Shown: positions 3,618-50,400 of the stretch, piece by piece
Position numbering within the stretch: position 1 is the stretch's first letter
How the letters are laid out: each line of letters opens with the position of its first letter
NCBI GenBank assembly: GCA_905160935.1
Contig: CAJHZI010000695.1
Location: 62,001 to 126,000, forward strand
Reading direction: 5' to 3'
DNA: 64,000 nt
DNA from: Enchytraeus crypticus
Taxonomy: Eukaryota > Annelida > Clitellata > Enchytraeida > Enchytraeidae
Translations under genes and position numbers: made by a program
Notes under the pieces: generated by a model
Told to the model about the DNA's origin: nothing
What the model saw: the letters and a program-made list of their open reading frames with translations, nothing else
Databases searched by the model: none

Positions 3618-3726
3618 TCATGTTTTTACTTCCTTGGATTTGTTCAATGTCTGATAACAAGTGTGACACACTCTAACAGGCTTAACAATCCTCAGTCTTC
3701 TTATCTCAGTCTCATAGCTGCTGCAC
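3618..3726 (-). CDS. WDFY3: WDFY3 exon 48 (last): end of FYVE finger and stop, residues 3560-3595
   Basis: Acceptor ttgaacag. Joined to exon 47 it gives KCSSYETEIRRLRIVKPV followed by RVCHTCYQTL, supplying ligands Cys 3561, 3580 and 3583. The stop TGA is at 3618-3620. It has no long ATG-initiated frame and lies about 1.36 kb beyond exon 47, past the 30-bp array. Confidence 0.95.
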
Positions 3727-6700
3727 CTGTTCAATCAATTAATCAATCAATCAATAAACCAACAAATCAATAAATAAATCAATCCATCGATCGGTCAATC
3801 AATCAACCAACCAATCAATCAATCAATCAGTCAATCAACCAACCAACCAGTAAATCAATCAATCAACCAACCAATCAGTCAGTCAACAATCAATCAATAA
3901 ACCAACTATTCAAACAATCAATCGATCAATCAATCGAAAAAGAAAAAAGTAAATCTATCTATATGTTAACATGTGAATCATAAATTCAATCAATAAAATG
4001 CCAAAGAGGCCATGAAATCGACGTTAAAGATAGATTCTAATCTTCTTTGCCTTCAGTAATTTTCCATTAATATAAAGTTCAATTGATGCATCGTAGCTTG
4101 AATCACTAATTATATACTAACATAACAATCAAATAAGAGATTTGATTACATTACACGATTAGATTTAAAATTTTATTGCAATCACTAAATTTATTAAATC
4201 TACAAACAACGCGTAAATTCGTACAATACACGGCTCAGGAGAAGACTATACACGAAACCAGTAACATTCAACTTCAATTTCTTTCATTTTATTATTTACT
4301 TCATTTTGTCATTTCTTTTTCCAGGAAACTCGTCCCCGCAGTGCCAAACCATACTTCATGAGGTCATAAATAAAACATATTATTTTCCACCCAAATTGGC
4401 GATAAATAATGTGACTGAGCACCTAAACTCCAGAAACAGCAACCAGATTTTCTACTCCCGGCTGAAGTTAAACAGGGATTCAATGCAATATGATGATTAT
4501 GATGACGATGATTAGTGATAAATAATAAATTAAATGTCTGGAGGTGCAGACACTTTGAGCCGATAAATGCTCCATCTTAATAAAGCCAGTCAACAAGAGC
4601 TTCTATACTCGTTAAATACCAGCTGAAAGTTACTCATTGAGCTATCTGCCACTCATTGCTCTCTCATTGATCTATCTGTTACTCGTTGCTCTCTCATTGA
4701 TTGAGCTATCTGTTACTCGTTGCTCTCTCATTGAGCTATCTGTTACTCGTTGCTCTCTCATTGAGCTATCTGTTACTCGTTGCTCTCTCATTGAGCTATC
4801 TGTTACTCGTTGCTCTCTCATTGAGCTATCTGTTACTCATTGCTCTCTCATTGAGCCATCTGTTACTCGTTGCTCTCTCATTGAGCTATCTGTTACTCAT
4901 TGCTCTCTCATTGAGCTATCTGTTACTCGTTGCTCTCTCATTGAGCTATCTGTTACTCATTGCTCTCTCATTGAGCCATCTGTTACTCATTACTCTCTCA
5001 TTGAGCTATCTGTTACTCGTTGCTCGATCTCAATGTGGCGGATAAACTGTAAGCTAGTGGACGAGTAAAATGAGCAGGAGTACTTGGAGCAGAAGAGCTG
5101 GCCACAGTTCCTGCAGTGATGTCTCCTCTCATAGACTGAGAACCTGACCGCACAGGCCACGCAGCTGTCGCCTCCCTCGTCCTTCACCCAGTGGTCAGCC
5201 GCTGATCTACCCGGTACATCGGCCACGCTCCAGCTGTACACCCGTCCCTTAGCGTCACCTACATACACCGTCTTGTGGTCCCTGAGTCAGTCAATCAATC
5301 AATCACTCAATCAATCAATCACACTCCTGTTGTACACTAAAGATCGTTACGAGGGTGACAGGCTAAAACTCAAAACTCATTTATCTCCCTTAGCGTCCTC
5401 TGACGTACACCGTCTTGTGGTCTGTATCAATCAATCAATCAATAAATCAATCAGTAAATCAAGCAATCAATCAATCATCAACAAATTCATCATTCAATCA
5501 CCAAGCTACAGCAATTATTGCTATAAATAGCACCTAAATAGATCATCTATATATCTTAAATAGTGTATAGTAAACATAAAAAACCACAACGTTTATGTCT
5601 GTTCATTCTCTAAAGGGTCTCGTTAGGATTAGAACCTTTAACCTGCTGTTCATAAAACAAGAGGCAGAGAAGAAGATTTTCCAGTGATTTCAAAAAGCAA
5701 AGAAAATAGTAACAAATAACTTTAATACGTGCTAAACAAATGAGGAACAATATATGAACAAATATCATCCAATTTAACCTACTCGAGGTCTCTATTTATG
5801 GTACAGGTTAGTATCATTAACTAGAGACCATAGTACTAAAATGGTACATACTTGGAAATACCGAGAGCAGTTATAGCGGCAGGCTCTTTGTTGTCTTTAC
5901 GCTCGAAAGCTGTATGCATCGTTAGCTTGCTTCTAAACACGAGCTGTTTCTGCCAGTGAAATCCCTCCCTCAGGCCGCCCTTCTTACGTACCCCCACAGC
6001 GCCCACCTCAGGGGCGGATACGGGCTGGGGAGAGGGGGCCGAGCCGCTCGAGCTCTCCTCCCCGACCACGTCCACCGGGGTGAGAGACCCGGGGCCTGAA
6101 CTCTGCCCCGCCCTGACCCCCCCGGCTTCTTTAACCTCCGCATCGGTGATGATACAGAAATCATTAGCCGGGGAACCGTTTTGAGTCTTAGCCCTGTATC
6201 CCTCATAGCGATCTTGGGCGTGCTCTTCTTGTCCTACGTCAAAGGAAGAATTGAGGTCCTCCTCCATCTGGAATATAGTGCTGTCCAGTTTCACACGCCT
6301 CGGACTCGCTTCACTCTCATCCCATAGGTCATCGCCTGTGCCTGGATTTGATTTACGATCTTCATCCAGCCACGCTCTAAATCCTGCGTAGCCAATCCCG
6401 TCGCCGCTCTCAACTGATGACCCCGTCTTACACGTCAGCTCCTCCAGTCTGTTGACCAATAGCGTTTTACTATCCAGCACTCCGCTTCCTGATTGGTTGA
6501 TTGGAATCGACGAAGAGATGGCAGAGGATTTTGTCAGATCTTCCTGCGACTGATTTGATTTTGGCTGAGCGCATTCATTCGGCACCTCCACATATTCCAA
6601 GCTCCACATTCTAACCACCCCGTCACTATTCCCGGTTATAATAACATTATTGATGTCCCACTCCTTCAGCTGGGTCATGGTAACGCAGAGTATCTGCTGG

Positions 6701-9700
6701 TTTCTGCCCGTGGCAGTGTTAACGCTTGCTATCTCAGTGCCATTGATGGTCCACAGGTAAAGATAGGTCCCAGCACAGGTCGCTATATCTCCGGTCAGCT
6801 CATTGATATGCACGGCAGCCACAGGCGCGGGGTGGTCGCGCAGCTGCCTCACGAACACTAGCTCATTGAGGTCCCAGATAATGCACGTCCTATCCCGTGA
6901 CCCGCTCACGATGATGTTGTAGCTGGACGAGGCTGTGAGAAAGGTAACGGCCTCTGTGTGACCGAATAGCGACCTCCTCAGCGTCAGTCTGTTCTTCTCA
7001 CCCCTTCCCCTACCAACCCTCCACACGTTGACCACGGTGCTAGTACCCGCAGTGACCAGGGTCTTATCGTTAGGACACACCGCACACAACACGTCGCCAT
7101 ACGACCACTGCTCAAACACAGACGTCGCCTTCTCAGAGTCGTAATTCCCCACGCGGATACTCATGTCGGGAAATCCCCAGGCGAGGTATTTACTGTATCC
7201 AGGCGGAATAAGTGTTTTGTTTTGCTCGACGGCCAGCATGGCGCGGTCGTTGTGGATGATCTGCCCCACGGAGTTCTTGAGTTCTTTGACGGGCTGCATG
7301 GAAGGTCGGAGGTTGTCGAGGTTGTAGAACAACAGGCGGTCACTCGACGACGTTACGAACGAACCCATGGGAACAATGGGTGCCGAGCGAATAGAAAGCT
7401 TCTTCTGCGGGTGAGGCTTCTTGAACAGCTGCAGCAACATAGTCGTAATAAATTATATTAGACTAGCATAAAACTATGCCAATAAAATATTGGCACCAGA
7501 TTAGATTTTAACCAAATTAGCTTTTAGCCTAGGATTAGTATTAAAAGCATTTGAACATTTGCCAAAGTTGAGTAGATACATAACTTTTTCTTTTATATAA
7601 ATTTTCATTTTCCGGCTTTCCTACTGACATTAATTGCTTGAGAGAAAGCAGCATATTCAGTATAGAAAACACTGCAGAGTTGATCAAGGATGATCATTAC
7701 ACTGAAATGTCAGATTAATCTAACAGAAATTATATTATTAGAACAGTAATTTCATCGTTTATAATAACGCTAGAAGTGTTACAATGGTAGGTAGAAATAA
7801 ATTCATACTAATCATTTGCTTTTCATTTTTAGTAAATATTGCTGTTTAGTTGAAGCAAACCATGTGGCTATAGATAAGCCACATACAATAATAATTTTAC
7901 ATGATTTTATAAATAAGCAGAATTAACTAGTATTCACTGATTCCAGAGGCAGAACTATGGTAATATCATCAAGTATAATAAAATATCTCTCTTAGTGCAC
8001 TGCCTACTGGCAGGTCCATGGTACATAATGCCTCCACTCTTCTCTGTCTTCCGCCTTCCTCTTCATTTCCACATATGAGTGGGTCTTTAAATCATCTAAC
8101 ATACCTAATCTCGGCCTGCCCCTGCCTCTTTTTCCTTTCATTCTACCTTCTATGACCTCTTTTAATAGACCTTCCCCCCTTAGAATGTGTCCATCTCTTC
8201 TTCCTATTTCTTAATACACTTATCAACTGTCTATCTGTGCCAACTCTCTCCACGACTTCCTCATTTGCAACCTTTTGAGTCCAGCTAATCCTCTCCATTC
8301 TTCTCCAAATCCACATTTCCAATGCCTCCAGTTTCCTAATATCTTCCTTCTTAAGGTCCATGTTTCACATCCATATAATAGCGTGGTCCAAACCAAAGTT
8401 TTCACTATCTTTATCTTTGTGTCTTTCTTTAGACTTTTTGTTAATAGTTCTTTTCTACTACCAAAGGCGCTTTTGCTTGTGCAATCCTACTGCATATTTC
8501 TGTCTCACATTTCCCATCATCGGTTATATTATGACCCAAATATTTGAAACTCCTTACCTGTTTCAATCTCGTACCATTTATTGTGATAGTAACTTCACCT
8601 TTATTATTGGACACTCTCATAACCTTAGTCTTTGTTACAATAATCTTCATGCCATATCTTAAAGCCGTGTCATTCAGCCTATCCATTATCTTCTGCAATC
8701 CAATCTCGCTGCCTGCTACCATGCCTTGGTCATCTGCAAATCGTACATCTTGTAACAAATTTCCTCCTACTTTTATTCCTTCTTCAAATTCTTCCATGGC
8801 TTCCTCCATCATTGCCTCAGTGTAAATGTTAAACAGCAGCGACGAAATGCTACAACCTTGTCTTACTCCACGTCCTATTTCATCTTCTTCTGAGTATTCT
8901 TGTTGGATTTTGATTACTGCTCTTTGATTCATGTACAAGTTCAAAATTAGTCTTCTATCTCTCCAGTCAATTCCTATTCTTTTTAAGATATTCATCATCG
9001 TTATCCAATCAATTCTGTCAAAGGCCTTCTCGAAGTCTACAAAGCATACAAAAACGTCATTACCATATTCTAAGCTTCTTTCGCAAAGAACCCGCATTAC
9101 TCCTATTGCTTCTCTTGTGCCGCGTCCTTTCCTAAAACCAAATTGTGTCTTGCTCAGTATCATCTCTGCTTTCGACTGAATGTGATTATTTACTATCTTT
9201 AATAAGATCTTCGAGGCATGAGGTATTAAGCTGATTGTTCTGTAATCCGAACACTCCACAGCATTGGCTTTTTTGGGAATTGGAATCATCACTGACTTGG
9301 TAAAGTCGTCTGGCCAAATACCTGTACTGTACACTTCCATACATACTTCCATTAACTTTTTGAGTGTTTCTCCTTCCAACATTTTCAAGAATTCTGCTGG
9401 GATTTCATCTATTCCGGCTGCCTTTCCCTTCTTCATACTAATTAATTGCAGAATAAATTTTCTCCTTCATTAAATTGGGGCCCCTTTTATCGTCTTCTAT
9501 GATATTCTCTTCTTCTATTTTAAAATCCTCTTGAACTGGTTTCCCAGCCTTATCATACAATTCCTCTACATATTCTCTCCATCTTTCTTTTACTTCTTCC
9601 AGCTCTGTCTTCAATTCCCCATCTTTACCCATTATACTAATGTTCTTTGCATCTCCTTTCTTTTTCTTATCGGTTCTTGTTAATATCCTGACTTCCTGGT

Positions 9701-12700
9701 ACAATAGATCCGACCTCCCTCTTCTATCATATTCTGCTAAATCATCACACTTTTCACTCCACCAATGATCTTTTGCTTTGTCTGTAACTCTTCTAAGTTC
9801 ACTGTTTAAGCTTCTATTTTTCCTTCGGCCATGACTGGTGTCAATACTTTTCCATTTCCTCCTTTCATCCATTTTGTCTAGCATCTCGCTTGTGATCCAA
9901 GGTTTTTAGCTGCATTTGCTTTAAGAAAGCCACAAACATTTTTTGCACCTATTTTAATATCTTCCTTTAGCTGACACCATCTTTCATTTACTCCTGTTCT
10001 TTCGTAGTCCTTCATTTCCTTAACTTTTCTTTCCACTGCTTCCTGAAACTGACTTCTTTTCTCATTCAATCCGTTCAAATTCCATCTCCTACTGCTTTTC
10101 TTCTTAAGTATTTAAGCATTAAAATAATATTAATTATTATAATTATAATAGAATTAATAACTATTGACTCTAACAAAAGACTGCAACTAAAAATATGATT
10201 ATGCCTCAATAATTATAATTCAATATTAAATTAGAATAAGAATAATAAAGGTTTAACGTCCGTTTCCTCATACAAGGATGATTTCAGGGACATTAGCTAC
10301 AATACTATAGTATTGTTAACAACATTGTAAGGAGTCTCGAATCAGCAAAACCAACATAACTACCTCATGAAGTGGTTTGGAAGTCTTTACCTGTTTAGGA
10401 ATCTGTCCAAAGTTGTTGATGAAGCCGATGGTGGCCGTTCTCTTGAGCGGATCATCAATGGCGTAGATGTCGACGTTACCCTCGTAGAACAGATGATGGA
10501 AGACATTCACCGCCTCCACTGCCGGGGGTCCCTGCTGCTTGTAGCCAAAGATCAGATCGATCCACTCGTGCAACCTGGAGCTGACGTAGTCGCACTCGAG
10601 CGCCTCCCTGTGGGCCCTGATGAACTCCCTCGCCTCGCCCTTACCCCAGGGAGGTAGCACGACGTCACCTAGACAAACCCCGCTCTGCTTCGTGCCTAGC
10701 TCAAAGTGATTAGAGTTGTCAAGAAACTCCGGGAGATAGAAAAACTCCGGGATGAGTTCCTTCACGTCCGCCATGTTGTGCTTGGAGGCGGAAGTCCAAG
10801 CGTCCTTGATGCTGTGGAACATTCTGTCGGCCAGGTCGAAGTGTCCGCCCTGGAGCTTGAGGAAGGTCTGGGTGAACGGTTCCATGCGGATGAGATACGA
10901 GGCGACGATCATAGCGGAGGAGTAGTGCGTGCCGTAGTGGTACGGTGGGGTTTCCCCGGTGGGGTCGTCCCAATCCTGATACCTCTTCTTGAACTGCTTC
11001 AGTCGATCAGGAGTTTGGGCGCCCATAGGAGCGCTCAGATCTCTAAACGTCGCCGGATCGTTGAGGTCAAGCTCTTCGGAGTCATAGTCCGCGACAGTCC
11101 ACGGAAAGACCGGATACTGCATGAGATCATTGTAGGATCTACCTGCCAGTGTGTTCAGACACATCAAATACTCAAAGTTTGTTATCTCACCCCTCTCCCA
11201 CCTCTGCGTCACAGATTTCTCGCCGATGAGGCTGCTAATTAGGCCGGTTCCTGGCTCGACCTTTGCCCCCTGACGTTGACCTGACACAGATTCCTGAGCG
11301 CTGTCCGTCAGCTCCTTCGCCAGCGACTGAATTCTCGCGTAAACCTTATTGCGAACCTTACGAGGAAACGCGAGGAGGAAATTTCGTCCGTCCGCGGAGA
11401 AAATCTCGACCGCGATTGGCTGAAGCAGGTACCGCCTCTTGTGGATTTCTCGAATGTCGTCGAAGGCCATCTTGAAGCACATTCTCTTATGGGTGGGGCC
11501 CTTGGTGGTGCGGGGAATGATGGGGTCGTGGAGATGGGGGGGCAGACAGCTGATGTCAGCTATCTCTTTGCTCCTCAGCAGTGTGAACCCGTCAACTATA
11601 TAGAAGTGATCCCTCACAAACAACAGCAGTCCTTCAACAGTGTCCAGTCCTTGGATACGTGCACAGCGAAACATGTGAGTTATCTACAACAACATCCATA
11701 ACAACACCTAGCAATTCCATTGTGTCGTGTGTCCTTGAATTCATCATGACATAACGTAAGCAACAGGTCTATTCGTATCGCGATCCTAGTTAAACTGGGA
11801 TTTAAGGAATGATGATGATGATGACATAACGTTAGCACTAGAGCAGCTACAAACCATCTCTCCCTCCTCGAGTAGCTTGAGTATGGTCTGGTTATCAGGC
11901 TGCTGCTCAGGTGTGGTCACCACAGCCTGTGACTCAGCGTCTGTCTCTGAGGCCACGCCCATCGGCTCAGCGTCGAGCTCTGCCACGTCATCATCCAGGT
12001 TCTCCTCACGAGTCTGTTTGGGCAAGTGCTGCAGCAGCGTGGGCGTGCCTAAACACAGAGAAATTATAGGTGTGGGCGTGCCTAAACGCAGTAATTATAG
12101 GTGCTGCAGCAGTGTGGGTGTGCCTAAACACAGAGATTATAGGTGCTGCAGCAGTAATTAACAGAGCAATTAGACACAGTAATTTAGACACAGTAATTAT
12201 AGGTGTGGGCATGCCTAAACACAGAGATATTATAGGTGTGGGCGTGCCTAAACACAGTAATTATAGGTGCTGCAGCAATGTGGGTGTGCCAAAACACAGA
12301 GATTATAGGTGTGGGCGTGTCTAGACACAGTAATTATAGGTGTGGGCGTGCCTAAACACAGTAATTATAGGTGTGGACGTGCCAAAACATAGTAATTGTA
12401 GGTGTGGGCGTGCCTAAACACAGTAATTATAGGTGTGGGCGTGCCAAAACACAGTAATTATAGGTGTGGGCGTGCCAAAACATAGTAATTATAGGTGTGG
12501 GCGTGCCTAAACACAGTAATTATAGGTGTAGGTGTGCCAAAACATAGTAATTATAGGTGTGGGCGTGCCAAAACATAGTAATTATAGGTGTGGGAGTGCC
12601 TAAACACAGAGACATCACTGCACTACAGTAACTAATTAATTATGTATTTGCTTTAGTTAATGCACTAGTTAATTACGCCTTTATGAATGTCTAAATAGAG

Positions 12701-15283
12701 TAGGGGTAACGTCATGAAGATTTAAATGTCAAATCCTGAGGTGAATGGAACCCTTGTGGGTTCGAATCCCGGCCGCGCTGATCTGAGAGTAAAATCTCGG
12801 ACATTCACTGGACTGGTTATACGGAAAATGGCCTAAATTGCCTAAAGGATTAAACATGTGGTATTAAAAGTGACAGATATCAACATAGTTGATTATTCAC
12901 TATAATGCGTGTTTACTTTACTTTGCCTCAAAAAATGCACATGTACTAAATTAATAATGGAAACCAAATTTTCAAAAAATTTTCTGCATTCACGAGTAAT
13001 GACGTCAGATTTAACTTTGACGTCATTAATGACGTCAGATTTAACTTACCCTCTGCCATATCGGGTGTGTTGTTTCCACTGAATGTCACGTCATTAGTGA
13101 CGTCAGATTTAACTTACCCTCTGCCACATCGGTTGTGTTGTTTCCACTAAATATTTCGTCACTAATGACGTCATATTTAACTTACCCTCTGCCATATCGG
13201 TTGTGTTGTTTCCACTGAACGCCTCGCTCAGCGCCTCGTCGATTCCTCTCTCCTGAGAGTCCACAGTCGCTGCTCCAGTGGCTGGAGGATTAGCGGAGTC
13301 ACTGAAGTCGTCCTGGAGCAGACTGAGAGTGCTGTGGGACAGGAAGTACTTCCGGCTGTCCAAGCTCTGAGCCGTGCGGTACTTGAGCTCACTCTGCTCC
13401 AGGTCTGGTCTGTAGGGGTAGTGGTCGTAAAAGTCTGGGTTCCTCCGCAGCTTCTTACGCATTCTGTACGGTCCTGTGAGCAGTCAGTCAGCCAATCAAT
13501 CAATAGATCTATCAATCAGTCAATCAGTTAATCAATCAATCAAGCTATCTATCAATCAATCAATCTGTCACTTAATCAATCAATTAATCAATCAATCAGT
13601 CAATCAATCTATATTATCAATCAATCAATCAAACATCAATCAATCGATCAATCAACCGATCAATCAGTTAATCAATCAGACAATCAATTAATCAATCAAT
13701 CAATCTCTACCAACAATCAATCATTAGCTCATTTATTTAATCAATCAGACAGTCAATAAATCGATCAACCAGTCAGTTGGTCAATTAATACTTGAATCAT
13801 TCATTTATTCATTCATCAATAAATCAGTTAATTAATCAATCAATCAATGTTCATCATCATTTTCCCTAGAATCCCAGGTTAACCAGTGTAGGGATACGAA
13901 TAGATTGTCTCCAGTCCTCTCTGTCCCACACCATATCATCAGTCAATCCCCTATTTTTCATGTTCTTTTTAATTACCGCATCCCACGTCAATTGTGGTCT
14001 ACCTCTCTCTAATTTTTCACTCCATCCTTTCTAGTTTTATCACACATCTCAACTTCTAGAATCATCTCTCCACTCCTGTACTCACTTAATTGCATACATT
14101 ATATGAAAAAATCTTTGAAGGTTTCCAACGAAGAATTTTTAGAAACTTACTGGCCTATTCTGAACATAATAATAGAAAATACTATGATTTTCAACAACAA
14201 CAACAACAACAACAAACCCTCAGTGACGTCCATCATCCACTTGTCAAGCTCAGAGGCCACATCGGGTCCCCACAACCCTCTCTCTCTCATAACAACAACA
14301 ACAACAACAACAAACCCTCAGTCACGTCCATTATCCACTTGTCTAGCTCAGAGGCCACATCGGGTCCCCACAACCCTCTCTCTCTCTTATAACAACAACA
14401 ACAACAACAACAACAAACCCTCAGTCACGTCCATCATCCACTTGTCTAGCTCAGAGGCAACATCGGGTCCCCACAACCCTCTCTCTCTCATCAACTCTGA
14501 CTCGATCTGCTGCCAGTCCTCCATCAAATACTGAGTCATGTGCTTCTGACTCTAAATAAATAAATCAATCAATCAATCAATCCTCCATCAAATACTGAGT
14601 CATGTGCTTCTGACTCAGTCAATTAGTCCATCAATCAATTCATCAGTAAGTCATTACAAATAAATCAATCAAACGAACAGTAAATTAATCAAACTATCAA
14701 TCAATCAACAAAATCATTCAATCAGTTATATTTGGAGCTCAATGCCTTATTACTACGTTCTTACTCTTAGAAAAAGTCATAAAATGCTGACATAAGAAAG
14801 GGGTCAATGAGGATTTGAACTGGATCAAACATTGTACACTACACTGTACACAACACTGACACACACATGACATCATAAAATGAAAATAAGAAGAGAGCTA
14901 AAGAAAGTCAGTGTACGATTATAAAACAAGAGAAAGAGAGACAGAGAAAGAGAAAGAGAGAGAGAGAGAGAGAGAAGTGAGGGAGAGGAAGATACAAAGA
15001 GTGCGAGTGAGATATTGAAAGAAAGAGAAAAAAACAGAAAGAAAACATAGAGCGAGAGAGAGAGTGAGAGTGAGAGAGAGAGAGAGAGATGGAGATGGAG
15101 AGAGAGAGGGAGAGAGAAAGAGAAAGAGAAACTGATAGAAATATAGAAGAGACAAAAGCGAGAAAGCAAGAGAACCTGTAGAGACTGTTTAGACTGGACC
15201 ACCACCAAGTCTCTTACAATAGAGGCGTGCATCATCGTCGAGTTGTACCACTCCTAGAGTCGTCATACACATAAAACACATAG

Positions 15284-15318
<35 letters not shown>

Positions 15319-15400
15319 CCATCAGCATCATCATCATCATCATCTCATCATCATCATCATCATCATCATCATCACCATCAGCATCATCATCATCATCATC

Positions 15401-15467
<67 letters not shown>

Positions 15468-24400: not shown

Positions 24401-24556
24401 CATGGAGAGAGGAACAAAGTCCTGCTGGTTGTGGTAGAGGAAGAGGAGGAACTGCATGACTGTGACTGGATAGTCCTTCACCCACGAGTCCTCCTGCCTG
24501 TCCGTCACAGGCTGCTCAACCAGGCAACAGATAACAGTCGCTAACATGTTACACTA

Positions 24557-24588
<32 letters not shown>

Positions 24589-30500: not shown

Positions 30501-30896
30501 CTGTTCAACAGGTGACGCTTCTTCTTAAACAACATCGCCAGCATCTACAAAGTTATAACATCGATCAGTCTATTCATTGGTCAATCAATTATTATGTCTA
30601 GTATTTATTAGCATCTACCACGTTATAACATCGATCAGTCAATTAAACAATTCATTGGTCAAACAATTATTATATCTATAATTTATTTTCTATAAAAATA
30701 ACTATCCACTAGTCACTATATAGCTTGTAGTACTAAAGGTTAAAGAAAATGTTTTTTCCACGATCAGCGGCTAATCACCACACAGACACTTAGCAGCAGG
30801 ATGATAAATAGAGCTGCTATTATATTATTATTTTAATTATTTATACTATTATTGTTATTTTATATATCAATGGGGACCGGACAATAAATATATAAT

Positions 30897-30927
<31 letters not shown>

Positions 30928-36882: not shown

Positions 36883-36945
<63 letters not shown>

Positions 36946-37054
36946 TAATCATCATCATCTTCCCTTGAATCCCAGTTTAACTAGGGTCGGGATACGAACA
37001 GACTGTCTCAAATCCTCTCTGTCCTAAATCATATCATACCATCAGTCACTTCCC

Positions 37055-37127
<73 letters not shown>

Positions 37128-39223
37128 GTACAATGCCAGTCAGATGAAATTAAGGATAAATTAAAACAAAGAAATAATAAAATCAACTATAAGCTAAAAA
37201 CAGGCAACTAACGTAGGAGTTCAAGTAGAAGAAGATAAGCAGACAAACCTGAGGATTCTCCTCACAGTGAATGGCGGGAACAAGATGCAACAGAGACACC
37301 ACGGCGCCCGAATGCACTATCAGCGGCTCAGGCGTGCTGGGCGAGAGATTGAGGGATAGAGATCCTGTGCTTCCTCTACGTCCTCCACTGGCTGCAGGCT
37401 GTGAGACAGCAGGAGCCGAGGCTGGATGTGCTGAGGGGTCAACAGCTGCTGAGAATCTCTTGAGGCTTGGGGAGTTGTTGCCAGGTAGACCAGCCGAGCT
37501 CGTTTGGCTTACCCTGAACACAACAATCAATCAATCAATCAATAAGAATTTAACGTCCAGTTCCTCGCCATAAGGCCATGTCAGGGACGTCTCTTGCGGA
37601 CTCCACACACACAAGCGCCAAAGAACCACACGATGACGACTGAGTACACAGAGACCACAAGAGAAACGTCTACATATCTACTCTTCTTACTTTCTTGCTG
37701 TCATGCATTTAGCAACCTATCTTCAAGTGATTAACAGAAGTCATACTTCAAACTGCACAGGGCTAATTTTAGTTTTATTTGCCTTAGCGCATGCCGCACT
37801 CGTTCAACAGTCTTTGAGCAGCTTTCAATTTTAAATAAAGGATATGAGAGAATCAATACACTATTATTACTACATTATACAGTATGGAGGAACATGATAG
37901 GATATGAAATAATATCCATACTATATTAGACAGCATAGAGGAAGATGATAGAATCAAACAGGGATTTGTTATTTATCATCCTATACCCATAGGATGATAA
38001 ATACCAGAAGCCACTGAGAAGAAAATTAATACAAGAAGCTATTGAGTATAGTATACGAAATACGAACCTACCCCATTAGCACTAGACACTAGGATGTGAA
38101 ATCAATCAAATGTTAGCATCGTTTTTCCACAAGTCTACTATTGCAGATAAAAAAAGAAAATCATTCTAGAATTAATGTAAAAGAAGCAATCATTTATAAA
38201 AGGTACCTGTCGAAGTTGTCTAGAGCCATATCATAGAGGTATCTGAGTAGTAGAGTAGCAGACAATAGAGTCTGCGGTAGATCTTTAGCTCTAAGTACAA
38301 ATAAAGTACAAATCATAACATAGAGATATAAGTAGTACAGTGGTAGATCTTTAGCCCTAAGTACAAATAAAGTACAAATAAAGTACAAATAAAGTACAAA
38401 TAAAGTACACATGATTCACTCAAATGATTTAATCAAATATAAACAAATATCACAAAGATTTCTTACACTATAATCCACAGGATATCATTCACATTTACCA
38501 CAGATAAATCTATTGGTAGATTATAAATCTATTGGTAGATTATAAATCTATTGGTAGATTATAAATCTACTTATTAGTTCAATGATAAATTAATTAACTG
38601 ATTTTATGAAGGAATGACGAACAGATTGCTTAATTGATTGATATACTGATTGATTGACTGATTGACTGACAGATTGAGTGACTGATTGATTAATTGATTG
38701 ATTGATTAACTGACTTATTGCCTGACTGATTAAAAGATATAAAAGATAGATTAATTGACTGATTGTTTGGCTGATTGATTGATAATTGATTGATTATTTG
38801 CATACACGGTATTTTCTGAGATATTTCTGAAGAGATCTTGGAATGGAGATTCTTCGCTGGGTTTAAGCTGCCCGACACTCGCAGACTCTACGTTAGCATT
38901 GTTGTTGAAGCATCCCAGCAGCCTAACAGCCTCTGTCAGGCTACTGAACCTAACCTGATGGGCAATCATCCAGTCAGCATTAGCTACTCTAATCACTAAT
39001 TAACTATTTGTTGCTATAGTAATTGACGTAAAAGAGATATTTTCATAAAATCAGAAACCGTTGATGCGACAATATCTTACATACAAAAGATCATATATGT
39101 ACTTAGTAGCCGCATAGTATTCCCGTGATACTTAAAAGGAGCTGAAACAGGACAGTAAAGTCATAAAAAGAGTGAGAGAGAGAGAGCGAGAGAGAGAGAG
39201 AGAGAGAGAGGGGTCATAGAGAT

Positions 39224-39261
<38 letters not shown>

Positions 39262-41372
39262 CAAGAGTCCAGTGCTCATGTGGTCGGCTCTTCAAAACTT
39301 TCACAGATGGAAATTTATTATTAATAATAATAACAACCTCAGAAAATGTCAAAAGCAGTGATGCATGATAAACCATTCATAGGCCCAAGATGATATCCAT
39401 CATATATACACAAATGATGCATTGGCAGGTTCATCTCATGGCTAAGACTGGTTAATTGATTGATTGATTGAATGATAGATTGATTAATAGACTGATTGAC
39501 TGCTTCAGTAGAGAAGACTCGAGCGTTGGCAGGTTCATATCTCATGGCTATGATTGCATGATTGATTGATTGATTGATTGATTGAAGTACCTCAGTAGAG
39601 AAGACTCTAGCATTGGCTGGTTCATATCTCATGGCTATGATTGCATGATTGATTGATTGATTGAAGTACCTCAGTAGAGAAGACTCTAGCATTGGCTGGT
39701 TCATATCTCATGGCTATGATTGCATGATTGATTGATTGATTGAAGTACCTCAGTAGAGAAGACTCGAGCATTGGCTGGTTCATATCTCATGGCTATGGTC
39801 ACTGCACTGAACATCAACTTTACCAGATCAATGACACTCCTCCTATCAACTAAAATCAATCAAATTAGTCATTTAGAAAATCAAACAGGCCAACACATGC
39901 TTAATTACACTCACCATATTGACTGGACTATACCAATTAATCAATCACTCAATCATCCATCTATCATGAACTCGTCCTCTCGACTAAAATCAACCATTCA
40001 TTCAATTTATCTGTCTTTATCTCGTCACATAGTCATTAATCCAGTCAAGACAATTTGATTAATAAATCAATCAATCAATAAGAATTTAACGGCCGGTTCC
40101 TCGCCATAAGGCAATATCAGAGACGTCTCTAGCAGACTCCACACAAACAGGAGCCAAAGCACCACACGATGATGACTGAGCACACAGAGACCACAAGAGA
40201 CAGCGAGATCAAAACAGTGCAGTCCAAGATCCAATGCAAGCGGGTTAATTAAGTTAATTGATTGATTAACACATTCGAAGGGGAGAAGGTCTATTAAAAG
40301 AGGTCATAGAAGGAAAAGAGGCAGGGGCAGGCCGAGATTAGGTATGCTAAATGATTTAAAGACCCACTCATATGTGGAAATGAAGAGGAAGGCGGAAGAG
40401 AGAGAAGAGTGGAGGCGTTATATTCCATGGACCTGCCAGTAGGCAGTGCACTAAGAGAGAGAGAGAGAGATTGATTACCTTTATCCCAGGGGGACTTAGG
40501 TGGGCAGGCGAGAGCGCCCTCCATCGACACGAGGACAGACATGACGTAGACAAACCCTCCGACCTTACGAAACACCGTCCTGCTCCTGTGGCTCTCCTTG
40601 AGTACTTGTAGCAGAGCCTGAGCACAAACAAAACTGAGGAATAACTCATCAACACGCAACACAAAGTATTCAAAAACATTTTCTCAATATATTTCATTAA
40701 GGATTAATTAGTTTAATTTAGTAATGTAATTTAATTGAATGAATGAATTAATTAATTGTTTAATTTAGTAATTAATTAATTCATTCATTCAATTAAATGA
40801 ATGAAGAACAAGATTAAACGGGTCAAACAACTAAACCTATTCTAACATCAAATTTTCTGCCAACAGCCACCATAGCAGTAGAACGAAATAGTAAAAGACA
40901 GGTCGATACAGATAAATCGTCACTCTCTCTCATAGTGCACAGCCTACTTGCAAATTCATGGTATATAACGCCTCCACTCTTCTCTGTCTTCTGCTTTCCT
41001 CTTCATTTCCACATATGAGTGGGTCTTTAAATCATCAAACATACCTAATCTTGCCCCTGTCTCTTTCTCCTTCCATTCTACCTTCTATGACCTCTTTTAT
41101 TAGTCCTTCCCCCTTAGAATGTGTCCTATCCAACTCTTCTTCCTATTTCTTAATACATTTATCAACTGTCTATCTGTGCCAACTCTCTCCACAACTTCCT
41201 CATTTGTAACCTTTTGAGTCCAGCTAATCCTCTCCATTCTTCTCCAAATCCACATTTCCAACGCCTCCAGTTTCCTAATATCTTCCTTCCTTAAGGTCCC
41301 TGTTTCACATCCATACAATAGCGTGGCCAAATCCAAAATGTTCAAAGATAAATGGTATATGGATTTAAAGAC

Positions 41373-41411
<39 letters not shown>

Positions 41412-44400
41412 AACAGTTAGGACGTGTTGTTTGAGCTGTATAGCAGAAGGAGGCGTGGTGTGCATGAGACCAAGTAAGGTGCCCATATCATCGTCTCCCC
41501 CTGTGTTCAGTATGAGCTGTTGAACAATGCTGAGAGCCTGCGCCCTGCATACAACCCGTGGCACCATGTTGTGAGCACAGCGTGCTCCCCCACTCTCTCT
41601 AAACACATCTACACAAAAAGACAATGCTGCAAGCTGGACCATCTTCAACAATGGACCATCTGGACCATCTTCAACATTGGACCATCTGAACCATCTTCAA
41701 CAATGGATCATCTGGACCATCTTTAACAATGGACCATCTGGACCATCTTCAACAACGGACCATCTGGACCATCTTCAACAATGGACCATCTGGACCATCT
41801 TCAACAATGGACCATCTAGACCATCTTCAATAATGGACCATCTTCAACAATGGACCATCTGGACCATCTTCAACAATGGACCATCTGGACCATCTTCAAC
41901 AAAACAGAAACCAAGACAGGAAACTATGTAACACACACGGTGTGTGTGTAACTATACGAAAAAATACAAAATAAAATCTTCTCTCTCTTTCTCTCTCTGA
42001 CGCTGACTTTCTCTCACTGCCTGGAGCCAGTGGCGATGTCGGTAAGGTATTCGACCGCGGATCAGTATGTGTGGAGTTCAAATCCTGGGCTCGCCCGTCA
42101 CTGACATCGCTTTCGAGTGCGGAAAATGACGTTAACATTGGCTTTACCAGCGTTATAAGTAATAAAACATTTAATTTAGCTTCATATTTATTAAGTTATA
42201 CAACAGTGTTCTGCTATATATGCATAAACTTAAAATGCCTATTATAAATGCACTTAAAATAAATAGAAATAAATCTTAGTAATTCTAAATTTATTCTTAG
42301 TAATTCTATTAAATAAAAATCTATAATAATTAATAATCTATAATAATTAATAGTCTATAATAATTAATAGTCTATAATAATTAATAATCTATAATAATTA
42401 ATAGTCTATAATAATTAATAATCTATAATAATTAATAATCTATAATAATTAATAATCCATAATAATTAATAATCTATAATAATTAATAATCTATAATAAT
42501 TAATAATCTATAATAATTAATAATCTATAATAATACATGATTTATTTAAAAACATGTATTTAGCAAGTTTCAGAAGATCATGAGAAGGCACGATGTCAAA
42601 CTTGAGATTAAACAATCAATCAATCAATAAAGATTTAACGTCCGGTTCCTCGCCTTAAGGCAATGCCAGGGACGTATCTCGCAGACTCTACACAAACAGC
42701 GCAAGATTAAACTAAGAATTCTCCACTCCTGCGTGATACCAGTAGTCCAGTACTATGGGTGTGAGTCGTGGAAATTAACAAAGACAACGAAATTGAATGC
42801 CACCGAAAACAAATGGCAAAGGGGAATACTAAGAATATCGAATCAGCTACAAAGAGCATGTAACAAATGAGGTCGTTAGGTGAGGGACAAAATATAGTCA
42901 GTGAAGATTGAAATGGACTGAACAGCAACTCTTAAGAAACACAACAGAACTCACTAAACAGATCTCACTATATTGAAAAGTTTGACGTCAATTTGTGGTG
43001 TTTAAATAAGATAACTTTTTGCTAAATATAAACAATGTCCACAATGAGGAGCATTTTCTCAAGGTTTAACAGTACATAGTGCTGAATATCCAAACAAAAA
43101 GCCATGAACAGATATCGATCAATCATTTAACGTCCAGTTTATCTACAGAATGAGATGTCAGGGACGTCTCAAGCAGACCACACAATTACAGACATTATCA
43201 GACTGCCTCGTGGTACCAGCACAGGTGAGAAATGTTCTACAAGGAAAGCAAGGGAAAACTATTAAAAAACAAGAGGACATACTGGCGTTGTTGTTGTTGT
43301 TGTTAAGCAACAGAGCTACCGTATCCATGACAAGTGAGCCCATTGTTTGCTCTAACTCTGGTATAGATTCCTCCACATCTGTCATATCAAACAATACAAT
43401 ACGATACAAGACAATACAATACAATACAATACAATACACATGACAAGTGAGCCCATTGTTTGCTCTAATTCTGGTATAGATTCCTCCACATCTGTCATAT
43501 CAAACAATACAATACAATACATGACAATACAATACAATACAATACAAAAACAATACACTTGACAAGTGAGCCCATTGTTTGCTCCAGCTCTGGTATAGAT
43601 TCCTCCACATCTGTCATATCAACAATTCAATACAATACAATACAACACAATACTGTACAATACATTATACCACTATAAAATACAATAAAATTATAATTAA
43701 CTCTATGGTAAGTGTGTTTATATACATTGAACAGTGCTCCAGGGCCCAATGCTAAGCCTGCTCATTGGAATGCTCTTTTAACAGCATTATGTAGCAGCCC
43801 TGTTGATTAGATGGCTCTTTTAGAAGTGCTATGTAATAACCCTGCTCATTGGATGGCTCGTTTAACAGCATTATGTAACAGCCCTGTTCATTAGATGGCT
43901 CTTTTAGAAGTGCTACGTAATAACCCTGTTCATTGGACGGCTCCTTTATCAGTGCTATGTACTAACCCTACTCATTGGACGGCTCTTTTATCAGTGCTCT
44001 GTACTAACCCTGCTCATTGGTTGGCTCTTTTATCAATGCTCTGTACTAACCCTGCTCATTGGTTGGCTCTTTTATCACTGCTATGTACTAACCCTGCTCA
44101 TTGGAAGGCAGTTTTATCAACGCTATGTACTAACCCTGTTCATTGGTCATTGGATGGCTCTTTTATCAGTGCTATGTACTAACCCTGCTCATTGGACGGC
44201 TCTTTTAGCAGCGCTGCGTATCTATGGAGACACGTGACCATGACCTCAAGTAGCCCAACCTCTCTATACACATCCTTGTAGATGCTGTGATGTTGTAGTA
44301 TTCTCTGCAGCGTGCGCATGCACAGAATGCAGCATCTCAGATCACTGAGCAACAACAACAACACAAAGCTAATAGATCACTGAGCAACAACAACAACAAC

Positions 44401-47400
44401 ACAAAGCTAATAGATCACTAAGCAACAACAACAACAACACAAAGCTAATAGATCACTGAGCAACAACAACAACACAAAGCTAATAGATCACTGAGCAACA
44501 ACAACAACAACACAAAGCTAATAGATCACTGAGCAACAACAACAACAACACAAAGCTAATAGATCACTGAGCAACAACAACAACACAAAGCTAATAGATC
44601 ACTGAGCAACAATAACAACACAAAGCTAATTACTGTAGCATGCACAGTAGGTTACACCATAGCTATCAGTATATTTATCATGTGGATAGCTATCAATTTT
44701 AATACCATATATATAACAGTATGTAACTATACGCTACTTAACAAACCCAACAGATATTATAATACACTACTTAGCACAGCCAGAAATTAAATTTATGCAA
44801 ATAATATATTGACTCAACAAAACATATTAATTTTTAAACAGTTACACCAAAAGAGCTAATCAAGACAAAATCATAAGATTACCAGTTTCTGATTGTTGAA
44901 GATTGCAGGACTTCAGTTTGATTTTAGTTAAGAAGAACATGAAACAAGAGTTATCAATAATGTCTATCAATAATCAATAGTAATAATTAATCAATAATGC
45001 ATACCAATGCGTGTTGGGTCCAGGTCACTGAATAATAGACCAACCGTAAACTGCCAGTGTCATAAAAGGCGACTGAGCAATAACTAAGGATGACAAATGG
45101 GAAACCACCTCAGAAGCCACATTATTCTCAATCTATAGGCTACATAAGTTATGGATAAGGCATAGCCTTTGTGAAGAGATTAACTCAATAATCCATTGAG
45201 TGCTCTTTATGTAGCTTGACAGCAGAATGCGAGCAGGAATATGTACCTAGGTCTCGCCACTTGACAGAGAACGCTCTAGACAGAGAGAGGCTAATAATAA
45301 TTAATATAGATTAGTTGCGGTAATTAGGTAGAAGAAGTTACTTGTTTGTTTTGATGAGAATACTGAGACTGATTAGCTCCTTGCAGGGAACAAAGTTCAG
45401 GTTGAACACTATGAACTCTATCATCTCAAAAAACTTCACCTGAAACAACAATTAACCATCGACTATGACAACATATAGCACTACCAACTTACAGTCTTAA
45501 GCTTGGAAATTAGTTGGAAAATAATCTGGAAAAAAAATGTAAACAATTATTTCAAGTAAACAGCATATGCAATACGAAATAGCTTGTAACTTACAGCTGA
45601 CTAAAGACTAAAAATTGTTAACAATATACATAAATAGATAGTGTAAAGTAAGGGAAGTAATTTCAAGTCAATAATACTATTACTTTGCAATAATTATAAT
45701 AATCATAATAATAATAATAAGGTTTGACGTCCGTTTCCTCATACATGGATGATGCAGGTACGTCCATGTAGCTGGTATTAATACACTTTCACTACATTAC
45801 CATACAGGATCTTCAGACAATATAGCATCTGAGGTGGTTTTCTGTTGCATCCTCAGATCTAGCTAAGAATAAGCAAAACTAGCACAAAACAAAAAACAAG
45901 CACAACAAGACACAATTACAATTACAAATGAATGCAGCACTGACACAAATACAGCGCAGTCAATACGACACAAATGCTCCTTGCACAGTTAAACACTGAC
46001 ACAAATACAGCAGTCAATACGACACAAATACTCCTAGCACAGTCAAATACTGACGCATATACAGCACAGTCAATACAACACAAATACTCCTAGCACAGTC
46101 AATATGACGCAAAGCACAGGCACAAAATATGAACAAAACAGGCACAAGGCACCTGAATGTCGGTGTGCTTCAGATGGATCTTCTCAGCAAACTGTGAGAG
46201 CGTGTTCTGTGGCTCTAGGATGAAGTAGTTGCAGCCGTCCTGATGGTAGATGCTGCTGAACACGTCCAGTATCGTAGTGCAGAGCTGATTGGACGTCGCC
46301 TTGAGGAAGACTGTCTGGAGCACCTGGAACGCTTGCAGGTTCCTCACGCTTAGTCCTGTCAATCAGTGTCAATCAGAGTTATCAATGAGTGTCAATGAGT
46401 GTCAATCAGCGTCAGTGAGTGTCAGTGAGCGTCAATTAGTGTCAATGAGTGTCAATCAGCGTCAATTAGCGTCAAGTCAATGAGTGTCAATGAGTATCAA
46501 TCAGCGTCAATGAGTGTCAATGAGTGTCAATCAGCGTCAATTATTGTCAATGCGTGTCAATCAGTGTCAATCAGTGTCAGTGAATGTCAATGAGTGTCAA
46601 TCAGTGTCAGTGAGTGTCAATAAGTGTCAATGAGTGCCAATGAGTGTCAATCAGCGTCAATTAGCGTCAAGTCAATGAGTGTCAATGAGTATCAATCAGC
46701 GTCAATGAGTGTCAATGAGTGTCAATGAGTGTCAATCAGCGTCAATTATTGTCAATGCGTGTCAATCAGTGTCAATCAGCATAAATCAGTGTCAATGAGT
46801 GTCAATCAGCATCAATCAATGTCAATCAGTTATCTCACTGATAAACAATTTAAACTTCAAGTTAACTTGCTGCACGTTTTACATCCTTACACATTAAAAT
46901 CATTCCAGTGCATTCTTTAAAGCCCTACTTCTTATTACAGATTCATTGCTAGATTGTTATTTATTAATCTTCATGACTAATTAAAACCCTCAGGAGGTCA
47001 GAGCGAGCGAGGCACAGACCTTTACAAGAAGGTTGTGGAATGGTGAAGCCAGGCATCTGGAACAGTGTGCCTGTCTTACCACTGGGCTTGAGCTCAATGA
47101 AGCCACAAGTGCACAGTGAACCAACCAACAAGACGAGGTTCCTTAGAGCCTGCACTGCTTCCTCCGTATCGTTCTTCTCCATCCTTCAGCCAATCAAAAG
47201 TATCAATCAAAAATATATACCAACAATCAATATAAATGTTTAAATATTTATAGGTCACCAGCAATCAATATAAATATTTATTAATTTGTAGGTCAACAGC
47301 AACTAATAATAACCATATTACGCTAAATAGTATCACTGACAAAAGAAACAAAGTTTGTCAAGTAATTAGAATTTATTAAGCCAACAAGATGATAGAAACG

Positions 47401-50400
47401 AATGGAGGCATGTTGCCGCCCTTATGTTCTGTACAAAAAGCAAGGAACTGATGATGGTGAAACCAACAAGAAATCAATTAAAACAACAAAAAACTGAATG
47501 AATATAATAGCTGAACGAATAACTAACAAAACACCTTTGTTATACTTTAATACTCTAAATAAAACGATTTAATTCACGAGGATGGACGACTCACTTGAGA
47601 AGGAAGTCTGAGAGGAAGAGATAACCGTTGCAAGAGCGGAAGTCATCGAGGAGTGTCTGAGAGACATCACTGGAGTCCTTGAGGAAACAGAACACCGTTA
47701 CAAACATCTCCACCAGTTCTATAGGAGACAACTCATGAACTCGCTGCATGTTGTCTATAGACACTGAGATACAGCCCTTACCTGTAACATTAAACACATG
47801 TCCACCAGTTCTATAGGAGACATTAAACACATGTCCACCAGTTCTACAGGAGACATTAAACACATGTCCACCAGTTCTATAGGAACATTAAACACATCTC
47901 CACCTGTTCTATACAACCCTTACCTGTAACATTAAACACAGGTCACTGGCAAAATTGACAGGGTTGGAATTCGACACCTCTAGCTGACCAAACAAGTGCG
48001 CAAACAATTTCATTATCCAAATAGTATAAACACACATAGCAGAATCTTAAATTTCACCAAACTTCAGCAAAATGACATCTTTAATATGTAATCCAAATGA
48101 TGCAACACGTTTTCTATATTTTCTTAAAGAAATCTTCTCTGGAAAACGAATTAAACGAAAACGTCACAGTTCACTTTGTCGAGTACTGAAGATATTTAAA
48201 CAACGAATCAAAAAACACGCATTATAGTGAAATGATCAACTATGTTGATATCTATCACTTTTTTAATACCACATGTTTAATCGTTAAGCAATTTAGTCCA
48301 TTTTCCGTATAGCCAGTCCAGTGAATGTCCAAGATTTTACTCTCAGATCAGCGCAGTTGGGTTTCAAACCCGCGAGGGTTCAATTCACCTCAAGATCTGT
48401 CATTTAAAACTTCATGACGTTACCCCTACGCTATTAAGACTTTCACTATTAGCACAACAACAACAACAAAAACAACAACGATGGAACTTACTGTGTATGT
48501 ATTGAACAACAACAGCGACAGAGCTTACTGTGTATGTATTGAACAACAACAACAACGAGAGAGCTTACTGTGTATGTACTGGACGACATTGGGCGTGAGA
48601 CCGTGCCTGGAGATGGTGACGAGCACTTCAGCGGAGCTCTTGCGCCACGGCACGTTGTGAGGAGGGCACCAGCTCGTGATGGCACTGAACAGCAGCGTGA
48701 GGTCGTCCTTACGAGCCAGCTCCTCCGCAGGTGAGGAATGGCTGCAGAGCCTCACCAACACCTACCAACCAATCATACCATCCGGTACAATAACTACAAC
48801 CAATCATATCAAACAATACAATAACTATGACCAATCATATCAACCAACACAATAACTACAGCCAATCATATCAACAGATACATCATCTACAGCCAATCAT
48901 ATCAACAGATACATCACCTACAACCAACAATATCAACAAATACATCATCTACAACCAATCATATTAACCGCTACATCATCTACGACCAATCATATCAAGT
49001 GATACAACAACTACAACCGATCATGTCAACAGATACATCATCTACAATCAATCATATCAACCGATACATCATCTACGACCAATCATATCAACAGATACAT
49101 CATCTACAACCAATCATATCAACAGATACATTATCTACAACCAATCATATCAACCGATACATCATCTACAATCAATCATATCAACCGATACATCATCTAC
49201 GACCAATCATATCAACAGATACATCATCTACAACCAATCATATCAACCGATACAACACCTACAACCAATCATATCAACAGACACATCATCTACAGACAAT
49301 CCTATCAACAGATACACTACCTACAATCAATCATACCATCAGACACACCACCTACTACCAATCACATCAACAGAAAAACACCAGCAACCAATCACATCAA
49401 CAGATACATTATCTACAAACAATCATATCAACCTATACAGCAACTACAATCAATGTTAACGTCAGTTTCCTTACTCAAAAGCGATGTCAGAGATGGGCGA
49501 GCCCAGGATTTGAACCCTGCACATACCGATCCGAGGTTGAATACCCTACTGACATCGCCACTGGCTCCAGTCGGAGAGTAGTAGAGAGTAACAAAATATA
49601 GTAGCTTTAATTTCCCTTCATAGCACCAGTCTTAAACCCTAAGCACTTAGATGAAAATAAAACGACTTCAAAACTGTTATATATTTTTATCTTTATAAAT
49701 ATAGAATTTAAGTAATCGCCTAAAATTTTAATATTCCAATAGAGAAGTTTGCATTTATCTAGTGACCTTCTCTTGCGGTACAAACCCACCTTTAGATTAT
49801 TAGACACTGATTGACATGCTTATTTGCAGTAGCCAGTGGCATCTGATCAGTTTAATATCAGATGTCAGATATTTAACTGATATTAAACTGATCAGATATT
49901 TAACTGATATTAGTATGTGCCGGTTCAAATCCTGTGCTCACATGTCACCATTATCACATTTGAAAGATGAAACAGGCATCAACATGGGCCTTAAGTAATT
50001 TTTCCATCTCTCATTTCCATCCAGTGACCATGAGTTACGACCTGCGCCTAAACCTCCTTTCCTTTAATTCCCTTTACTTTGGACTGATTTTCAGGATTTT
50101 GGAATTTACACCGTTTTTGGACCTTCCTTTTGCTTGCCAGCCTGATTTTGTCTCAATAGTGCTCGATGTTGTCATTGATGGCTGTAGCACTCTAATTGCT
50201 GTTGTTGTTTTTTAAAAAACTTGATTGATTGATAGAAACTCCATGATCAACCTGAACGAACACTTTCTGCAGCAGCACCCTCCTCTCCCTGGGGGTAAAC
50301 TCACACCCCGCCTCCAGACTGTCGGCGTCCTTGACCTCTGGCAGGTCAAAGAACAGGTACAAGCACTTGACAAGAGTGGAGGGCATTGCTGCCACGGTCA

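Follow-up and report, generated by a model that had tools for sequence, protein, structure and literature searches.

We analysed a window of 64,000 nucleotides of the 524-Mb Enchytraeus crypticus genome (contig CAJHZI010000695.1, positions 62,001 to 126,000; positions below are counted from the first letter of this window), which carries on its minus strand the gene WDFY3 (Alfy). Many exon edges of this gene are copied in tandem, together with their splice sites, into the adjacent introns, and the copied junctions are probably mirages, i.e. minisatellite-type tandem duplications with a unit that spans the exon-intron boundary. The gene was located at 3633..53193, with the start codon at 53193 and the last exon found at 3633-3726, the 3' end of which is undefined. 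The range given by the initial annotation (4630..48570) was too short, since WDFY3 reaches past both of its ends. Spliced alignment to a profile of 16 homologues, chosen from 120 listed, resolved the gene into 48 exons and 47 introns, with 94 splice-site sides. An earlier alignment that penalised introns only lightly had placed spurious tiny exons along the arrays and was superseded by this one. With exon-proximal splice copies, the joined frame ran through 3592 codons with zero stops, as the initial annotation had stated for the innermost copies; coding bases amounted to 10776 and intron bases to 38785. In a tree of WDFY3 with 27 homologues, the host was placed near the sampled spiralians and apart from two lancelets (support for the adjoining split was weak, 0.625), and its WDFY3 was 65% identical to that of Lineus and 60% to those of lancelets. 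Judged by this gene, the host is not a cephalochordate.

Exon edges were compared with the introns by two tests. The strict ungapped test called for a net score of at least 8 in the exon part, at least 5 in the intron part, and at least 15 in total. We found that 21 of the 94 sides had a tandem copy of the exon edge and splice site in the adjacent intron, namely 11 donors (exons 4, 9, 13, 24, 25, 26, 28, 33, 36, 42, and 43) and 10 acceptors (exons 5, 10, 15, 21, 22, 26, 27, 38, 39, and 44). When exon edges were set against mismatched introns, 0 of 1466 trials were positive, in agreement with separate events at each junction, as had been proposed. In the gapped test, exon edges were judged at a 0.5% threshold obtained from 4324 mismatched exon/intron pairs. 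Here 22 of the 94 sides were positive versus 0.47 expected, and all 22 copies started no more than 1 base from the junction. The gapped test added the acceptors of exons 41, 42, and 47 and left out at least one strict side (acceptor of exon 5), and the union of both tests comprised 24 sides (11 donors and 13 acceptors). In either test, the copies were private to their own intron. The initial annotation had claimed copies at more than 20 of the 94 sides, and this was upheld: 23 of its 25 listed sites passed, its 11 donors were identical to those of the strict test, and the acceptor of exon 27 was new. Among its 14 acceptors, 12 passed (exons 5, 10, 15, 21, 22, 26, 38, 39, 41, 42, 44, and 47), whereas those of exons 9 and 23 failed both tests, with arrays that reached just 6 and 4 exonic bases respectively.

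The individual sites all lay on the minus strand, and unless stated otherwise each was recovered by both the strict test and a copy scan; the junction and the extent of the site are given in brackets. On the donor side, exon 4 (48569; 48465..48588) had 2 copies of its edge, both with GT. A 42-bp unit was present in 9 copies, 7 of them with GT, at exon 9 (44184; 43752..44220), and a 79-bp unit that included (TCAA)n was present in 3 copies, 2 with GT, at exon 13 (39749; 39433..39797). Exons 24 (30392; 30127..30482) and 26 (28704; 28536..28712) each had a 33-bp unit, in 5 and 4 copies respectively, all with GT and open in frame; alternative donors in the arrays at 30127-30392 and 28536-28704 could add 11-residue repeats. 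Exon 25 (29343; 29000..29342) had 8 copies of a 34-bp unit, 5 with GT. The largest copy number was observed at exon 28 (27225; 26474..27237), where the scan counted 41 copies of a 16-bp unit, 17 with GT, and Tandem Repeats Finder (TRF) 44.6 copies. At exon 33 (21917; 21637..21963), copies lay 76, 148, and 224 bp away, all with GT, and exon 36 (19792; 19724..19835; strict test) had a perfect 56-bp duplication whose match length equalled its offset. Units of about 100 bp and of 68 bp, each in 2 copies with GT, were present at exons 42 (14419; 14192..14491) and 43 (13186; 12997..13219) respectively.

On the acceptor side, copies were located at -142 from exon 5 (47781; 47704..47944) and at -66 from exon 15 (38290; 38276..38409). 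Exon 10 (43378; 43326..43622) had 2 copies of 53 exonic bp at a 113-bp offset, and exon 21 (32966; 32896..33239) 2 copies of 70 exonic bp. A 129-bp unit including (TTGA)n, also detected by TRF, was present at exon 22 (32213; 32169..32432), and 52 exonic bp were copied at an offset of 129 bp, again including (TTGA)n, at exon 39 (17160; 17109..17322). Exon 26 (28865; 28804..28988) had one extra copy of a 92-bp unit, and exon 38 (17958; 17920..18370), likewise seen by TRF, 5 extra copies of a 75-bp unit, all with AG. The array at exon 44 (12048; 12026..12612) was mostly of 31 bp, with 14 copies, 9 of them with AG. The above sites are putative mirages. Four other acceptors had lesser copies: a diverged copy at -55 from exon 27 (28187; approximately 28187..28260; strict and gapped tests and copy scan), in which AG was not intact; a weak copy of simple GAT repeats at exon 41 (15230..15484; gapped test and copy scan); a copy in intron 41 of the initial 38 bp of exon 42 (14517..14616; gapped test and copy scan), again without an intact AG; and, in intron 46, a gapped copy of roughly 36 bp from the start of exon 47, together with (TTGA)n (approximately 5256..5424; gapped test, outside the copy scan).

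Copy number in the scan ranged from 1 to 41 (one to nearly 50 had first been reported), and the nearest-copy offsets at the 21 strict sides ranged from 16 to 142 bp, i.e. they were of minisatellite size. GT or AG was retained in 73 of the 109 copies at these sides, and in 47 of 54 when the short-unit arrays at donor 28 and acceptor 44 were excluded.

Other genes of the same genome were examined as well. Neurobeachin (NBEA, contig C737) was mapped by spliced profile alignment as for WDFY3, with 16 homologues from 120 listed, and had 49 exons without a stop; exons 1, 22, and 26-29, which looked poorly conserved, were retained. The strict test was positive at 22 of its 96 sides and the gapped test at 23, of which 19 copies started no more than 1 base from the junction. 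Three genes were mapped ab initio, with 6/102 (NBEA-like), 2/46 (PRPF8), and 1/24 (part of clathrin heavy chain) sides positive in the strict test and 3/102, 1/46, and 0/24 in the gapped test. These three counts are rough, in that dropped exons sit within merged introns, and NBEA-like is the least certain. The NBEA-like map used the 52 exons of at least 60 bp among 69 predicted; the PRPF8 map used 24 of 36 predicted exons over 25 kb, with 11 exons under 60 bp and one 65-bp first exon dropped; and the clathrin map used 13 of 18 predicted exons, those under 50 bp being dropped, and covered 10 kb of the gene. Labels were assigned via solved structures (PRPF8), homologue names (NBEA), Pfam (clathrin), and a reading of the predicted protein (NBEA-like), while loci C364 and C473 were used for gene prediction and the repeat-cover table alone. 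The junction rate of WDFY3 differed from that of PRPF8 (P = 0.007), as did that of NBEA. The initial annotation had suggested repeating the comparison on other long genes; NBEA was as strong as WDFY3 and the other three much weaker. With 22 of 96 sides in NBEA and fewer elsewhere, the copied junctions are therefore not private to WDFY3 and are strongly gene-dependent. The tandem-repeat load of introns was 28% in WDFY3, 27% in NBEA, 18% in clathrin, 17% in NBEA-like, and 3% in PRPF8, and the two genes with the highest load had the highest junction rates. By region, tandem repeats covered 4% and 0% of L034 and L035 (PRPF8) versus 30% and 27% of L010 and L011 (NBEA).

We consider the best explanation, with a probability of roughly 0.7, to be heavy tandem duplication within introns of certain genes, which is tolerated where it reaches junctions since the exon-proximal copy is spliced. 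The introns of such genes would carry a very heavy load of duplications that start anywhere in the intron. Those reaching deep into exons would be purged by selection, and those clipping an exon edge would survive because the authentic splice site would be the exon-proximal copy, the extra copies staying within the intron. Homology and frame point to the use of the exon-proximal copy, most likely via exon definition favouring the shortest exon. Arrays would subsequently lengthen through slippage or unequal exchange, and the first duplication may arise by end joining of staggered breaks. This duplication route was reported in mouse stem cells, according to the available part of that paper (PMC5730883). 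The ends of the perfect duplication at donor 36, a single case, had no shared bases, which would fit end joining.

The position of the arrays in WDFY3 was used to ask if junctions are special. The strict test, with simple repeats unmasked, was positive at 401 of 1500 random intron-interior positions (27%) versus 22% of junctions, and in NBEA at 301 of 1000 random intron positions. Elsewhere, 47 of 1500 intergenic positions and 8 of 1500 positions in exon interiors were positive. A blind circular shift of the 48 arrays along WDFY3 covered 23.0 junctions on average, compared with the 21 seen, and placed 2556 exon bases inside arrays, compared with 846 of 10776 observed, i.e. exons were depleted of arrays. 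With junctions positive no more often than intron interiors, a junction-seeking mechanism is not demonstrated, and the idea of the initial annotation that splice junctions are favoured as such found no support.

The strongest alternative, although we regard it as doubtful, is that a mutational mechanism seeks exon edges (e.g. through breaks at co-transcriptional structures or at the borders of exon-bound nucleosomes), with arrays seeded at junctions and then growing into the intron. It was assessed with a survivor null, in which arrays were re-placed inside the same intron with an exon overhang of at most 80 bp. This limit was an arbitrary choice, and overhangs of 20, 40, or 60 bp gave even fewer expected crossings; the interspersed-repeat mask used in the placement recognises just repeats that occur twice in the window. 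Several results favoured seeding at edges and weighed against duplications that start anywhere in the intron. In WDFY3, the ends of 34 of the 48 arrays crossed or lay no more than 30 bp from an exon edge versus 16.9 +/- 3.1 under the survivor null (0 of 3000 simulations), and 21 junctions were crossed versus 11.4 (P = 0.001). Similarly, array ends were close to edges in NBEA (30/48 versus 16.9), NBEA-like (19/32 versus 11.5, P = 0.003), and clathrin (6/7 versus 2.5, P = 0.011), and 19 junctions were crossed versus 11.8 expected in NBEA (P = 0.009). The coincidence of array ends with exon ends anticipated by the initial annotation was thus borne out in WDFY3 and again in NBEA. Array coverage peaked 40-150 bp from the exon edge, climbing again past 400 bp on the acceptor side. 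To explain the excess of array ends, a model without an edge effect must invoke edges shielded from deletion and insertion. Moreover, clathrin and NBEA-like fit a simple tracking of junction rate by repeat load poorly. In PRPF8, 2 of 3 array ends were near edges versus 1.2 (P = 0.36), and junction crossings showed no excess over the survivor null in NBEA-like (8 versus 8.4), clathrin (2 versus 1.7), and PRPF8 (1 versus 0.8).

When coverage was rotated within introns, the 150-bp zone beside exons was enriched in arrays (0.358 versus 0.282, P = 0.009), as were the 100- and 200-bp zones relative to the rest of the intron (P = 0.039 and 0.0065 respectively). However, no enrichment was found in the 50-bp zone (P = 0.34), and 36-bp junction windows touched any tandem repeat in 45 cases versus 40.1 (P = 0.13). 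The arrays therefore show a gradient near exon edges that has no maximum at the splice site, and shielding of edges from deletion or insertion, or seeding at edges, could each produce it. The lack of excess at the junction speaks against edge-seeking, and the few copies in PRPF8 and clathrin, which are probably strongly expressed, would speak against a transcription-driven process. Should edge-seeking nevertheless hold, which seems improbable, exon edges would be preferred birthplaces of tandem duplications, junction-anchored minisatellite birth would contribute greatly to the growth of introns, and the spliceosome would pick among near-identical sites at about one fifth of junctions in some genes.

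The remaining alternatives rank below edge-seeking. It is unlikely that the arrays of a few junctions are coding, with an exon that spans several units and a protein with a variable repeat. At donors 24 and 26, every scanned copy continued the open frame, with 4-5 units spaced 33 bp apart, but exon-proximal splicing kept exons 24 and 26 aligned to the homologue profile without insertion or deletion. The same two arrays, and the many duplicated sites that scored exactly like the authentic site, might also suggest selection for redundant splice sites, as raised by the initial annotation, which would serve as a reserve or yield alternative isoforms; we consider this very improbable. Nearest-copy offsets were multiples of three at just 7 of the 21 strict sides, which is the chance level and shows no frame bias, and use of an inner copy would mostly shift the frame or bring in a stop. 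Furthermore, by informal comparison conservation was in no clear excess: 47 of 54 copies retained GT or AG, and the motifs were on average about 0.9 identical. There is similarly little chance that the arrays record the gain or growth of introns through tandem duplication of AG/GT segments (a Rogers-type model): the duplicated segments do bear AG/GT, and the available parts of the amphioxus work propose such a route for novel globin introns (PMC3087553), but every array repeats a single exon edge, in the intron that adjoins it. Least probable of all is an assembly artefact, for tandem repeats are a classic assembly trouble and some arrays show few or no mismatches (acceptor 38 and donor 36), but the best copy differed from the exon edge at 18 of the 21 strict sides (82-98% identity, versus 100% at donors 25 and 36 and acceptor 38), copies were not common to different introns, and the pattern recurred on a separate contig (NBEA).

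The introns of WDFY3 had further sequence features. On the gene strand, (TTGA)n microsatellites ended the introns before exons 16, 18, 22, 27, 34, 36, 37, 39, 42, 43, 47, 48, and others. Two TTGA units were present in the last 60 bp at 20 of the 47 acceptors, versus 6.4 expected from windows placed at random in the same introns (0 of 5000 simulations), and (TCAA)2, the opposite orientation, occurred in the last 100 bp of 0 of the 47 introns. TTGA:TCAA ratios in the last 100 bp were 22:0 in NBEA (48 introns), 13:0 in NBEA-like (51), 3:0 in clathrin (12), and 1:1 in PRPF8 (23). UUGAU matches the branch-point consensus yUnAy, and the TTGA arrays may act as a series of branch points. A donor mark of (TCAA)n mirroring (TTGA)n at acceptors appeared strong in WDFY3 and faded when other genes were added, the (TTGA)2:(TCAA)2 ratios in the first 100 bp being 3:6 (WDFY3), 3:3 (NBEA), 3:4 (NBEA-like), 2:0 (PRPF8), and 2:1 (clathrin). 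After donors, CTCTCT outnumbered AGAGAG by 38 to 5 in the first 100 bp of the WDFY3 introns longer than 200 bp, which are 46 of the 47. An interspersed sequence ending in GGACGTTAAA, followed by TTATTG/TTGA-type tails, had 10 exact gene-strand copies in the window; its tail directly abutted the acceptors of exons 16 (37558) and 33 (22077), and it also occurred at 51269 and 42643. For exons 16 and 33, the splice site may come from a transposon tail; our guess is that the element is a short interspersed nuclear element. In intron 45, relatives of an open frame at 8444-9466 on the minus strand carry the reverse-transcriptase domain PF00078, and one of them, among the 120 of 3008 matches that were listed, covered 69% of the frame at 94% identity. 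The one organism named among the listed matches was Candidatus Nephrothrix, an earthworm symbiont. By reading, this frame appears to be a long interspersed nuclear element.

The copied junctions can be set against several known systems. Introners consist of one element copied into many introns; they likewise tie repeats to introns, but the edge copies of WDFY3 were private to their own intron (0/1466), and the same element in many introns was therefore not observed. The Rogers model, in which AGGT is duplicated in tandem, similarly involves intragenic duplication with splice signals, but it gives new introns, whereas here existing introns receive copies of their own edge. One study reportedly attributed novel Drosophila intron positions to sliding or tandem duplication, and another is said to have dealt with tandem repeats altering human gene structure. 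Among annelids, earthworm metallothionein genes have large tandem arrays in intron 1, which are intronic like those described here and, in the available part of the report, are not said to duplicate splice junctions (PMC12783039).

The closest likeness was to the mirages of amphioxus, which the available parts of two papers describe as exon-intron boundaries duplicated in tandem in the manner of minisatellites, in Adh3, troponin C, the globins BflGb6 and BflGb9, and PGBD5 (PMC3087553, PMC3902484). In both systems, the repeat unit spans the boundary (in WDFY3, at 21 of 94 sides in the strict and 22 in the gapped test, with no mismatched positives), both boundary types are affected (11 donors and 10 acceptors by the strict test), and many, not all, copies keep GT/AG (73/109, or 47/54 without donor 28 and acceptor 44). 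Units of 10-160 bp are given for amphioxus in those parts, compared with WDFY3 offsets of 16-142 bp. The two systems differ in that the present lineage is near spiralians and that 21-24 of 94 and 22 of 96 boundaries are affected, versus one or few per gene in the amphioxus accounts available. Also, amphioxus was studied by reverse-transcription PCR, which suggests that mirages leave splicing undisturbed (PMC3087553), and by comparison of haplotypes, which vary in mirage copy number (PMC3087553, PMC3902484), whereas here the copied junctions were seen in the sequence of one haplotype. A literature search whose coverage left out most subscription journals found, among the titles and abstract openings of mostly the best-ranked papers, no description of mirages outside lancelets. 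The initial annotation knew of no described gene with such a density of duplicated boundaries; the density may have no equal, but mirages as such had already been reported from amphioxus. The arrays provide a natural experiment, with dozens of competing near-identical splice sites per transcript and the prediction that the exon-proximal copy wins, and the contrast between genes (21/94 and 22/96 versus 2/46) makes the causes of tandem-duplication load testable within one genome. Together, as far as we have seen, the copied junctions are a known kind of structure, in another lineage and at unusual density, suggesting that splice-junction duplication, described in the literature found solely from lancelets, can also be widespread in an animal lineage far removed from these.

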